Positions 49,762-54,106 of a stretch of DNA of 64,000 nt are shown here, in pieces. The translations under genes were made by a program, and so were the position numbers. The notes beneath the pieces were generated by a model. It saw nothing but the letters and a program-made list of their open reading frames with translations. It had not been told where the DNA came from and did not search any database. This stretch comes from Syntrophaceae bacterium (GTDB lineage: Bacteria; Desulfobacterota; Syntrophia; Syntrophales; PHBD01): assembly GCA_013177825.1 (NCBI GenBank), contig JABLXX010000001.1:272936-336935 (forward strand), written 5' to 3'. Every line of letters begins with the position of its first letter. The stretch's first letter is position 1.

Positions 49762-50389
49762 CGTCGCCCCTCCAGCGGCAGAAGTTGGACAGGATCTCAA
49801 GCCCCGGGCGGCCGCTCTTCTCGGGATGGAACTGGACGGCGACGAGATTCCGGCACGCCACGGCGGCACCGAAGGGGAACCCGTAACGGGTCTCTCCGAC
49901 GATCAGTTCCCGGTCCGCCGGATCCGGATAGAAGGAGTGGACGAAATAGAACTCGGCCTCCGGCGGAATGCCTGCGAACACCGGGTGGTTCTTGCGGAAG
50001 GCCACGGAGTTCCATCCCATGTGGGGGATCTTGAGGGTCTCTTCGCCTTCCTTCATGCCGGCGGGAAAGCGGCGGACGACGCCGGGGAGGATCCCCAGGC
50101 AGGGGGTTCCGTCGTCTTCTTCGCTTTTCTCGAAGATCACCTGGGTGCCCAGGCAGATCCCCAGAACCGGCCGGCCTTCCTGGACCCAGCGGCGGATCCA
50201 TTCGTCCAGGCCCGATGCGCCCAGGTTGGCCATGGCCTCCCCGGCGGCGCCCACGCCCGGAAAAATGATACGCTCCGCCCGGTCCAGCCTGTCCGGATCG
50301 TTGGTAACCTCGCAGGGGATGCCCAGGAAATGCAGAGCCCGGGCCACGCTGGTGAGGTTGCCGGCCCGATAGTCCACGATACCGATCAT
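49751..50389 (-). CDS. hisH: Imidazole glycerol phosphate synthase, glutaminase subunit
   Basis: Supplies ammonia to HisF. 212 residues from [19 protein letters not shown], with GAGGAAAG upstream. Nucleophile Cys in LGICLGTQ (usual form GICLGMQ), oxyanion strand PHMGWN, and His/Glu in [10 protein letters not shown] longer frame to 50767 only shadows the next gene. Confidence 0.96.
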
Positions 50390-51333
50390 GTGTTTCTTTC
50401 CTCGAAGCGGATTCCCTGATGGGCGTCTCGCCGCTCCAGTTCGCGGTCGATGGCGCCCAGTACGGCCATCTTGTTGACGGCCCATTCGGGAGCGAGGAAT
50501 ATATCCCGGTACCCGTCGGCGGTCAACCGCTGGATTGTCATCCGCGGCGGAAGGATTTCCAGGACGTCGCAAACGGCCTCCACGTACTGCTCCCGGCTCC
50601 ACAACGGGAAGGGCTCCCGTTCGTAAAGCGCTCCGAGAGGCGTTCCCGAGAGCACCAGCAGACAGTGGATCTTGATCCCGTCGACGGGCAGTCCCGCCAG
50701 CGTCCGGGCGGTTTCGAGGACGTCTCCCCGGGTCTCGCCGGGCAGCCCCGCGATGATGTGCACGCAAAGGTTGAGGTTTCGCCCGGAGGCCCGGTCCACC
50801 GCCTCCAGGAATCGTTCCGCCCGATGGCCGCGGTTGATCCGGGCCAGGGTCCGGTCATGGATCGACTGGAGGCCCAGTTCGAGCCAGACATGGCGATCCT
50901 GCGCCAGTTCCTCCAGCAGATCCAGGACCTCGTCGGGCAGGCAGTCGGGCCGGGTTCCGATGGACAGGCCGGCCACGTCCGGCAGGGCCAGGGCCTCCCG
51001 GAAGAGTTCCCGAAGGTGTTCCACGGGGGCATAGGTGTTCGTGAAGGTCTGGAAATAGGCGATGAACCGGGCGGCCCGGCGGTGTTCCCGGTAGTAGTCC
51101 ATGCCCCGGAGAAGCTGGTCCGTGACGGACGGCAGGGGGCCCTCCATGCGGACCCTGGAACCGCGGCCGTCACAATAGATGCAGCCGCCCGCGGCAACGG
51201 TTCCATCGCGGTTCGGACAGGTGAAGCCGGCATCGACGGGAAGTTTGTAGACCCGGCAGCCGAACCGGTTCAGCCAGTAGCTCTTCAGGTCGTAATATCG
51301 TTTCCTGTTGTTCCAGTAATCTGGTTTGGCCAA
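50386..51333 (-). CDS. TIGR01212/YhcC-family radical SAM protein
   Basis: Radical SAM enzyme of unknown substrate, 315 residues. The cluster cysteines are in FTCPNRDGTVAAGGCIYCDG (C-x11-C-x2-C). VWLELGLQSIHDRTLARINRGH, VHIIAGLPGETRGDVLETA and KIHCLLVLSGTPL are family segments. The most likely start is TTG at 51333 with GGAG nine bases upstream, since the frame continues far upstream against the opposite gene. The stop overlaps the hisH start (ATGA). Family members may modify tRNA or ribosomal components; no link to histidine synthesis is known to me. Confidence 0.88.
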   Translation of the reverse strand: MAKPDYWNNRKRYYDLKSYWLNRFGCRVYKLPVDAGFTCPNRDGTVAAGGCIYCDGRGSRVRMEGPLPSVTDQLLRGMDYYREHRRAARFIAYFQTFTNTYAPVEHLRELFREALALPDVAGLSIGTRPDCLPDEVLDLLEELAQDRHVWLELGLQSIHDRTLARINRGHRAERFLEAVDRASGRNLNLCVHIIAGLPGETRGDVLETARTLAGLPVDGIKIHCLLVLSGTPLGALYEREPFPLWSREQYVEAVCDVLEILPPRMTIQRLTADGYRDIFLAPEWAVNKMAVLGAIDRELERRDAHQGIRFEERNT

Positions 51334-51534
51334 GTGCGGCTCCGGGGACCGGTCCGCCTGCCGGCGGCGCGTGGTCGCTTGATTTGAATGGATAAAATGA
51401 TTGCCATTATTTGGAAATGTAGTATAGCAAATTTCTTTTCCCGGGGCGACCGGCAAGCGTTGAGAAGATCCGCCTGCGGAATCTCCGCCTTGTTCGAAAC
51501 CGGGAAAGAAGATCCCCGCGGGAGGATCCCCGGC

Positions 51535-52794
51535 ATGGTCGTTCAAGCCGTTCAGGAACCGGAATTCTTTGTCTATCTGAGCCAGATTCTTGGCAAACCG
51601 GTTCAGGACGGTCAGGGCCGGACGATCGGGTCGATCGCCGACTTGTCGGCGAACCTGGCGGAGTTGTACCCCTCGGTCGGCACCCTCCGGATTCGTCTTC
51701 AGGGGGTAAAATCGCCCCAGTACTTTCCGTGGCAGGATGTAATTCAGGCCAACGGTTCCATCCGCTGTGAAGGCTCTCCGAAGGGGGCGCCCGCCTTGGG
51801 CGAGAACGAGTTGTTTCTCCGCGACGCCCTCCTGGACAAGCAGATCGTCGACACGAACGGTGCGAAAATCCGGCGGGTCAACGACCTGCAGTTTCTCCGG
51901 TCCCACGAGCGCCTGCACTTGGTTCACGTGGACGTCGGTTTCCGGGGCCTCATGCGCCGGGTCGGGCTGGAAAAGGCCATGGATTTTTTCCTCCAGTCCC
52001 TGTTCGATTACGAGCTGCCGAACCAGTTCATCTCCTGGAAGTACGTCCAGCCCGTCTCCTCGCCGGACCTGCTCAGGCTGTCGATCACCCAGAACCGCCT
52101 GGCGCAGCTGCATCCGGCGGACCTGGCGGACATCATCGAGGACCTGGACATCCACCAGCGGGCGGCGGTCTTTCAGTCCCTGGATGTGGAGACGGCCGCG
52201 GAGACCCTGGAGGAGACGGATCCGAAGATCCAGGTCAGCCTGATTGAGACGGTGGCGATGGACAAGGCCTCGGACATCATCGAGGAGATGTCCCTGAGCG
52301 AGGCCGCCGATCTCCTGGGGGATCTGCCGAAGGACAAGGCGGAGGGAATCCTCAAGGAGATGGAACAGGAAATCGCCGATGACGTGAAGGAACTGCTGGC
52401 CCATCCCGAGGAAGAGGCGGGCGGACTCATGACGACGGCCTTTCTGAGCGTTCCGCCCGAAGCCACCGCCGCGCAGGTCCTGGAGATCCTGAGCCGGGAG
52501 GCGATGGAGATGGATTTTGTCTATTATGTCTACGTGACGGATGCACAGGAGCGCCTGCTGGGCATGCTGAGCCTCCGGGAACTCCTGGCGGCCGCGCCGG
52601 AGGTGCAGGTCGCCGATCTGATGGATACCCGCTTCGTCACGGTCCGGCTGAACGAGGAACCCGACGAGATTGCGGAGCAGTTCGCCAAGTACGGCGTCAT
52701 GGCCATCCCGGTGATGGACCGGGAAAACCGGATGAAGGGCGTCATTCCGTTCCGGAACCTCCTGGAACTGGTGGCCCCGAAACTGGGCAAGTGA
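51535..52794 (+). CDS. MgtE N-domain / CBS-pair protein without the channel domain
   Basis: 419 residues from MVVQAVQEPEFFVYL, with GGGAGG nine bases upstream. The first 130 residues resemble a PRC-barrel-type repeat pair (LGKPVQDGQGRTIGSIADLSANLAE). Next is an MgtE-type helical N domain (LHPADLADIIEDLDIHQRAAVFQSLD, DKASDIIEEMSLSEAADLLGDL), then a CBS pair (VADLMDTRFVTVRLNEEP onward). In MgtE these parts sense Mg and gate the channel, but no membrane domain follows here. The Nramp-type gene starts 28 bp downstream, so this protein probably senses the metal and gates or regulates that transporter. Confidence 0.85.
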   Translation: MVVQAVQEPEFFVYLSQILGKPVQDGQGRTIGSIADLSANLAELYPSVGTLRIRLQGVKSPQYFPWQDVIQANGSIRCEGSPKGAPALGENELFLRDALLDKQIVDTNGAKIRRVNDLQFLRSHERLHLVHVDVGFRGLMRRVGLEKAMDFFLQSLFDYELPNQFISWKYVQPVSSPDLLRLSITQNRLAQLHPADLADIIEDLDIHQRAAVFQSLDVETAAETLEETDPKIQVSLIETVAMDKASDIIEEMSLSEAADLLGDLPKDKAEGILKEMEQEIADDVKELLAHPEEEAGGLMTTAFLSVPPEATAAQVLEILSREAMEMDFVYYVYVTDAQERLLGMLSLRELLAAAPEVQVADLMDTRFVTVRLNEEPDEIAEQFAKYGVMAIPVMDRENRMKGVIPFRNLLELVAPKLGK

Positions 52795-52822
52795 GAACGA
52801 TGGAAGAGGACGGAGACCACGC

Positions 52823-54106
52823 GTGTTTGAACGGCTGTTCGGCAGGTCGGCGGGGAGCGTTTTCGCGACCCTGTCCCGCGGCGGCGCATGGAGGCGCTTT
52901 GCGGTGTTCTTCGCCCTCATCGGCCCCGGCATCATCACGTCCAACGTGGACAACGATGCCGGCGGGATCACCACCTACTCGCTGGCCGGGGCGGAGTACG
53001 GCCTTTCCCTCCTCTGGACCCTGATTCCCATCACCGTGGTCCTCATCATCATCCAGGAGATGGGGGCCCGCATGGGGGTGATTTCCGGCAAGGGCCTGTC
53101 GGACCTGATCCGGGAGCGCTTTGGCGCCAAGGTCACCTTCTACCTGATGATCACCCTTCTCCTGACCAACCTAGGGAACACGGTTTCCGAATTCGCCGGC
53201 ATCGCCGCGAGCCTGGAGATCTTCGGTGTCAGCAAGTATGTTTCCGTTCCCCTCGGGGCGGCGTTCGTCTGGTGGCTCGTGGTGAAGGGCAGCTACAAGT
53301 CCGTCGAAAAGGTTTTTCTCTTCGCCTGCTTGTTCTACCTGGCCTACATCGTTTCGGGCTTCATGGGAAAACCGGACTGGGGTAAGGTCGGGACTGCACT
53401 GGTCACGCCCACCATCCGGTTTGACCCGGGGTTCCTCACCATGGCGATGGGCCTCATCGGGACCACCATTGCCCCGTGGATGCAGTTCTATCTCCAGTCC
53501 TCGGTGGTCGACAAGGGCCTCAAGGCGGAGAACTACCCCTATGCCCGAATGGACGTCATCGTCGGCTCCGTCATGGTCAACCTGGTGGCGTTCTTCATCA
53601 TCATGCTGTGTGCCATCACCCTGCACACGAACGGGGTGAAGATCGAGACCGCCAAGGACGCCGCCCAGGCCCTTGCCCCACTGGCCGGGGTTTACTGTTC
53701 CTGGCTCTTCGCCTTCGGCCTCCTCAATGCGTCCCTCTTTGCCGCGTCCATCCTGCCGCTCTCCACGGCCTACACGGTCTGCGAGGCTTTCGGCTGGGAG
53801 TCCGGGATCGACCACAAGTTCATGGACGCCCCCCAGTTCTACGGCCTCTATTCCCTGATGATCATCCTGGGGGCCGGCATCATCCTGCTGCCGGACATTC
53901 CCCTCATCGCCATCATGTACTATTCCCAGGTCATCAACGGGATTCTCCTGCCGGTGATCCTCGTGGCCATGCTGCTCCTCGTCAACGACCGGGGAATCAT
54001 GGGGGAGCACATCAACGGTCCCGTCATGAACGTCCTCTCCTGGGTCGCCGTGGCGGGGCTGATCGCTCTCTCGGCGGGCCTGCTGGTCTCATCGCTCTTC
54101 TCCTGA
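52823..54106 (+). CDS. Nramp-related transporter with altered metal-site motifs
   Basis: 427 residues, about 11 membrane helices of the LeuT/Nramp fold. Helix 1 reads SNVDNDAGGITTY, so the DPGN motif is D-N-D-A (residues 43-46). Helix 6 reads GTTIAPWMQFYLQSS near residue 218, with Ala and Trp where canonical Nramp has Met and His (M-P-H). Loss of the Met is described for Nramp-related Mg transporters. With an MgtE-like sensor gene before it, Mg or another hard cation is the likely substrate. Start GTG, ribosome site GGAG. Confidence 0.87.
   Translation: MFERLFGRSAGSVFATLSRGGAWRRFAVFFALIGPGIITSNVDNDAGGITTYSLAGAEYGLSLLWTLIPITVVLIIIQEMGARMGVISGKGLSDLIRERFGAKVTFYLMITLLLTNLGNTVSEFAGIAASLEIFGVSKYVSVPLGAAFVWWLVVKGSYKSVEKVFLFACLFYLAYIVSGFMGKPDWGKVGTALVTPTIRFDPGFLTMAMGLIGTTIAPWMQFYLQSSVVDKGLKAENYPYARMDVIVGSVMVNLVAFFIIMLCAITLHTNGVKIETAKDAAQALAPLAGVYCSWLFAFGLLNASLFAASILPLSTAYTVCEAFGWESGIDHKFMDAPQFYGLYSLMIILGAGIILLPDIPLIAIMYYSQVINGILLPVILVAMLLLVNDRGIMGEHINGPVMNVLSWVAVAGLIALSAGLLVSSLFS

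Follow-up and report, generated by a model that had tools for sequence, protein, structure and literature searches.

A channel-less MgtE sensor protein is the near-constant genomic companion, and possibly the regulatory subunit, of an Nramp-related transporter

Our window (the whole 64,000-nucleotide stretch analysed here, from contig JABLXX010000001.1 of the Syntrophaceae bacterium assembly GCA_013177825.1) contains two adjacent genes that encode a soluble MgtE-type sensory protein (gene 1) and an Nramp-related transporter, or NRMT (gene 2). A functional pair of cation transporter and sensory protein is strongly supported, because both genes were found in 64/66 and 27/27 of the NRMT-positive genomes in two phylum samples and because an M-box (Mg2+ riboswitch) precedes the pair in 9/46 scanned relatives. 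The best explanation, which we hold with moderate confidence, is that the gene 1 protein is a dedicated cytosolic regulatory subunit acting in trans on the NRMT. The partnership itself is already published, and the window is a further case; what is new here is the near-perfect co-occurrence of the two genes, which is kept even where their order, orientation or linkage has changed.

Gene 2 (positions 52,823–54,106, + strand; GTG start, 427 aa) was matched by almost the full length of the Pfam Nramp profile (E 7.4e-102, 341.5 bits), which confirms the Nramp fold assigned to it in a preliminary description of this DNA. Its best solved relative was EleNRMT of Eggerthella lenta (7qia; E 5.7e-115; Ramanadane et al. 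2022, PMC8806188), a protein that likewise has the SLC11 fold, and a relative of gene 2 (L012) matched 7qji with Z 50.4 in a fold search. The register of the binding-site motifs could be fixed because a second Nramp in the window's genome (L001) is classical and keeps both DPGN (VGFIDPGNWAS) and Met-Pro-His. The helix-1 motif at the DPGN position is D45-A46-G47-G48 (52,955–52,966, + strand), where D45 is aligned to the D in DPGN; the D-N-D-A that had been read there was ruled out by alignments with DraNramp and L001. In helix 6 (T214-T-I-A217-P-W219; 53,462–53,479, + strand) gene 2 reads GTTIAPWMQF versus GAVVMPHNLF in L001, so that the two replacements noted earlier, Ala for Met (A217) and Trp for His (W219), hold in the alignment; T214 is a further change, Thr for Ala.

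Gene 2 carries the NRMT binding-site signature of G48 (Asn to Gly), T214 (Ala to Thr) and A217 (Met to Ala), and has lost the helix-6 histidines tied to proton coupling (W219 and Q225). The signature described for EleNRMT is the same (Gly, Thr and Ala, with Trp in place of His), such that the two proteins share all four substitutions, and EleNRMT transports Mg2+ (PMC8806188). Gene 2, an NRMT-type SLC11 carrier, probably passes Mg2+ (and Mn2+) without proton coupling, in the manner of EleNRMT. Its metal specificity is predicted from sequence, and no partner is discussed for EleNRMT in the available excerpts of its report.

The partner, gene 1 (51,535–52,794, + strand; ATG start, 419 aa), is preceded by a likely ribosome-binding site (GGGAGG, 51,520–51,525, + strand, 9 bases before the ATG) and has the architecture PRC-PRC-MgtE_N-CBS-CBS, with all domains on the same strand. 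Pfam identified the MgtE intracellular N domain (residues 192–293; 52,108–52,413; E 9e-26) and matched CBS twice (E 1.8e-18; pair at about residues 300–413; 52,432–52,773). A fold search placed residues 178–413 of the model on the Mg2+-bound cytosolic domain of MgtE (2yvy) with Z 26.9 and an rmsd of 2.5 over 236 residues. No membrane segment was found in the gene 1 protein (top 19-residue hydropathy 1.09), and a 19-residue stretch exceeding a hydropathy of 1.6 occurs in 9/91 relatives. Only six residues follow the second CBS domain, leaving no plug helix, and across 92 partners (window included) this tail is 2–22 residues long. The MgtE N domain and CBS pair without a membrane part were thus recognized correctly at the outset, with Pfam and hydropathy in agreement; two N-terminal PRC barrels had been overlooked.

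The first PRC-type beta barrel (residues 11–78; 51,565–51,768, + strand) is supported by Pfam and by the strands in the model, and the second, PRC-like barrel (residues 92–173; 51,808–52,053, + strand) by a weak Pfam match, a match to the profile of the first barrel, and model strands. In the whole protein the PRC match (residues 13–42) scored 27.1 bits against a curated cut-off of 21.2; the barrels cut out singly scored 19.7 and 14.5 bits, both below that cut-off. Their profiles matched each other (E 5.6e-5), and neither matched the MgtE_N profile used as a control. Among 56 aligned partner proteins, MgtE_N and CBS were present in all 56 and PRC in 54 (E up to 0.01). The model of the gene 1 protein (mean pLDDT 83.1; pTM 0.41 alone) runs in order through two beta domains, helices and CBS folds; the fold searches were dominated by CBS and transporter domains, and hardly probe the barrels. 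The two PRC barrels are probably docking or adaptor domains.

The genes are separated by 28 bases on the + strand, with a radical-SAM gene on the − strand upstream of gene 1 and a YchF-type GTPase gene 169 bases downstream of gene 2, and the transcription unit is most likely these two genes. A promoter scan of the locus found none, and a terminator scan gave one terminator-like site, inside gene 2, which is fewer than in shuffled sequences. An 862-aa open frame on the − strand (50,386–52,974) has a long N-terminal part lying opposite gene 1; this long start is probably spurious and only the end of the frame is the radical-SAM gene.

The pair is not a chance arrangement, because it recurs in many genomes. 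Of 80 loci identified from their transporter only, 75 carried the partner, and four of the five partner-less loci start 219 bases or fewer from a contig end; at the fifth (L112), 4 kb upstream of the NRMT was available and the partner was not there. In a sample of 60 genomes at the level of the taxonomic order (the order sample), 33 had an NRMT (at least 36% identity) and 32 of these an adjacent partner, the contig of the 33rd (G042) ending at the expected partner position. The first phylum sample (297 genomes) contained an NRMT-like protein in 66, a PRC-type partner in 65 and both in 64; the two NRMT-only hits do not have the NRMT signature (DDDPAC, DDDPSG), and in the single genome with a partner alone, the short contig that bears it also carries a fragment of an NRMT. 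In the second phylum sample (299 genomes; NRMT threshold at least 49% identity), 28 NRMTs were detected in 27 genomes with the partner directly upstream of all 28, one of which (L196, genome G478) is frameshifted, and in the one partner-only genome the sequence ends 13 bases past the partner match. Fisher tests of co-presence gave p values of 1e-61 and 1e-37 for the two phylum samples, which are overstated given that the genomes are related.

Gene order was less strictly kept than co-presence. In the 64 genomes with both genes, the partner came first in 41 and the transporter in 4, the genes were convergent in 9, and they lay on different contigs in 10; several of these last cases sit at contig ends or on fragments, and in G154 and G277 the pair is truly unlinked, each gene sitting on a long contig, over 5 kb away from its ends. 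Separation of the genes, which the preliminary description had named as a result that would speak against a partnership, therefore does occur (9 convergent, 10 on different contigs), and yet both genes are still kept; its proposed co-occurrence check came out in favour of the pairing. No fusion of NRMT and partner was seen in 93 same-strand pairs. Weaker second-phylum hits (28–35% identity) belonged for the most part to other groups of Nramp (GPGT, NDAPS, and DAGS with a retained Met), and no partner adjoined them in the fetched stretches. One genome, G512, encodes a 33% identical DAGG/TTIAPW protein, and the partner was absent genome-wide (E 1e-10) and on the contig by eye; G512 is a true exception to the pairing. 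Overall, the distribution shows dependence between the NRMT and partner genes.

The genomic setting also bears on the metal of the pair. No MgtE membrane domain (PF01769) was detected in the window's genome, in a search whose controls were positive in 9 of 14, and the genome encodes one CorA. In the order sample, an extra MgtE-type protein was found in 8/33 pair genomes versus 19/27 others. An MgtE channel was found in at least 6/64 pair genomes versus at least 167/232 others in the first phylum, and in at least 2/27 versus at least 184/271 in the second; these phylum counts are rough, as they cover the best six or fewer scored candidates per genome (G340 could add one to the 6/64). Pair and MgtE channel therefore have complementary distributions. 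Ahead of the pair, an M-box was found in 9/46 scanned loci, whose NRMTs are ~59–61% identical to the window's. One further M-box was found at L196, in a scan in which most of the remaining loci offered too little upstream sequence for a verdict. The window itself has no Mg2+ riboswitch at the gathering score (with E up to 10, only a chance snoRNA match), and its nearest scanned kin (L065–L098) have no riboswitch.

To evaluate the partner as a sensor, 95 partners, the window's among them, were aligned with 20 full-length MgtE proteins, with the Mg site assignments of Thermus thermophilus MgtE taken from PMC5882242 and its ATP contacts from PMC5529423. Two ligands are kept in the window partner on the + strand, namely E223 (MgtE E59, Mg7; 52,201–52,203) and D259 (MgtE D95, Mg6; 52,309–52,311); across the 95 partners the Mg6 position is Asp in 93 and the Mg7 position Glu or Asp in 86. 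The Mg4 pair is lost, with S255 (52,297–52,299, + strand) replacing D91 and N408 (52,756–52,758, + strand) replacing D247; Asp/Asp is found at Mg4 in 39/95 partners versus 19/20 MgtEs. At Mg5 (D226/D250), Asp/Asp occurs in 2/95 partners versus 17/20 MgtEs, and the window has G/E, with half of the site gone. As the plug helix is missing, Mg2 and Mg3 cannot form as they do in MgtE, such that the tested ligands are kept at two of six cytosolic Mg sites (Mg6 and Mg7). Among the ATP contacts, Y170 and R187 are kept as Y331 and R348; F227 and N203 have become V388 and D364.

The near kin of the window have Ser/Asn or Ser/Ser at Mg4 (Asp/Ala in L092, L098 and L099), and Ser/Asn in the lineage implies that both sides of one site changed together, so that this partner may have another set-point or another ligand than MgtE. 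All nine riboswitch loci keep Asp/Asp at Mg4, compared with 21/34 of the others (p 0.04, confounded by kinship; 3 of the 46 loci have no row in the alignment). The earlier proposal of an Mg-sensing partner stands in so far as the Mg6 and Mg7 ligands are kept, and is weakened for the window's lineage by the Ser/Asn at Mg4 and the loss of the plug helix with Mg2 and Mg3. The sensor fold and the two kept sites suggest cytosolic Mg2+ as the ligand, perhaps modulated by ATP; in the window's lineage Mg2+ is a candidate ligand. Compared with T. thermophilus MgtE (2yvy, 2zy9), gene 1 thus shares the N domain and CBS pair (32% identity, Z 26.9) and the Mg6 and Mg7 ligands, and differs in having no membrane part or plug helix, in its changed Mg4 and Mg5, and in its added PRC barrels.

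A neighbour resembling the MgtE cytosolic domain was reported for most NrmT genes in 2014 (Shin et al., PMC4072509), and a role in feedback control or, alternatively, as a chaperone was proposed for it in that paper. In Clostridium acetobutylicum and Acidobacterium capsulatum, as in the window, the NrmT operons place an Nramp-related transporter beside such a gene (PMC4072509). The window pair differs from the operons described there in having no M-box, in its partner being one gene, and in its lost Mg4 ligands; PRC barrels go unmentioned in the available portions of that paper. According to the same work, C. acetobutylicum NrmTs moved Mg2+ without the partner, and with the A. capsulatum proteins co-expression of the partner gave no better rescue, the NrmT there looking like a Mn transporter. 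The A. capsulatum experiment measured rescue only, and closure of the transporter would not show in it; for MgtE, sensitivity to Co2+ and Ni2+ has served to indicate that gating is lost (PMC5529423). A search of open-licence literature by title and abstract opening returned no later work on the partner, its PRC barrels or a subunit role.

Co-folding of the two proteins as a read-through pair, a check proposed in the preliminary description, gave a pLDDT of 86.1 and a pTM of 0.68 versus 0.41 for the partner alone; these are overall scores only, from which no interface is claimed. By our estimate, a pTM of ~0.5 would result if the transporter were well folded and the partner placed freely. The pair model is suggestive only in favouring contact, and no interface could be read from it.

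Under our preferred reading, the partner would consist of the N domain and CBS pair of an MgtE-type sensor, lacking both channel and plug helix, behind two N-terminal PRC barrels that are obvious docking candidates. Cytosolic Mg2+, perhaps with ATP at the CBS pair, would draw the N domain and the CBS domains towards each other, a state that would restrain the NRMT; the direction, closing at high Mg2+, is taken from MgtE. Physical docking, the direction of regulation and the ligand are points that we infer. In favour of this reading we counted the domains, the NRMT signature, the co-occurrence, the complementarity with MgtE, the riboswitch in relatives and the part-kept Mg ligands, and against it the A. 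capsulatum test, the partner-free transport in C. acetobutylicum, the absence of a window riboswitch, the lost Mg sites, the absence of fusions, and L112 and G512. Of the trans-gated cation transporter first envisaged, the functional pair is upheld, while trans gating has the published co-expression without gain in rescue against it.

It is conceivable, although we consider it rather improbable, that the NRMT of this lineage mainly imports Mn2+, or that the partner's CBS pair makes it respond to a nucleotide, such as ATP, instead of Mg2+. The A. capsulatum precedent (PMC4072509), the replacement of the Mg4 carboxylates by Ser/Asn in the clade, the kept Y331 and R348, and the lack of a riboswitch in the window and its nearest scanned kin would all be consistent with this; however, the binding-site signature is that of the Mg2+-transporting EleNRMT, the pair replaces MgtE in genomes, and V388 and D364 mark other ATP contacts as lost. 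Less probable still is a partner that serves as scaffold, assembly factor or metal chaperone and not as a gate. With most Mg sites and the plug helix gone, two PRC barrels of unassigned role, and no rescue effect on co-expression (PMC4072509), such a role is imaginable, but the whole N-CBS module is retained with a strictly conserved Mg6, it folds like the Mg2+-bound MgtE domain, and NRMT alone was active in the published complementation (PMC4072509). That the two genes are unrelated and merely close is highly implausible: the different-contig cases (10/64, several at contig ends or on fragments) would fit, but the co-presence statistics, even from non-independent genomes, and the retention of both genes across four arrangements argue otherwise.

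Returning to the regulatory subunit, a bolder version, which we put forward tentatively and as doubtful, is a modular design of carrier and detachable sensor, in which an MgtE-derived sensor that left its channel and gained PRC adaptor barrels is an obligate subunit of an SLC11 carrier, retuned in this lineage (Ser/Asn for the Mg2+-bridged carboxylates of Mg4, no riboswitch) and gating perhaps through other Mg sites or a nucleotide. If the subunit reading is right, the sensor domain of one magnesium transporter family serves a carrier of unrelated fold. The near-obligate co-presence, its persistence when the genes are unlinked, and the complementarity with MgtE make the unexplained gene flagged in 2014 a testable subunit.

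Several loci of the survey have unusual layouts. At L137 (1–1,860), partner residues 14–141 are encoded on the other strand, ahead of the remainder of the gene, through an inversion or an assembly error. The split partner of G478 (L196, 551–1,850, behind the M-box) was considered as a separate PRC gene, indicative of modularity, and rejected, as one frameshift within the MgtE_N part accounts for it. At L174 (1,885–4,878), two separate PRC-barrel genes adjoin an Nramp relative of the DDDPSG type, which is neither a classical Nramp nor an NRMT. Finally, five loci (L198, L209, L210, L214, L215) represent a group of Nramp proteins whose helix 1 reads DAGS and whose helix 6 keeps Met but has Trp in place of His; it coexists with NRMT in the same genomes without an adjacent partner, and is a possible intermediate between Nramp and NRMT.
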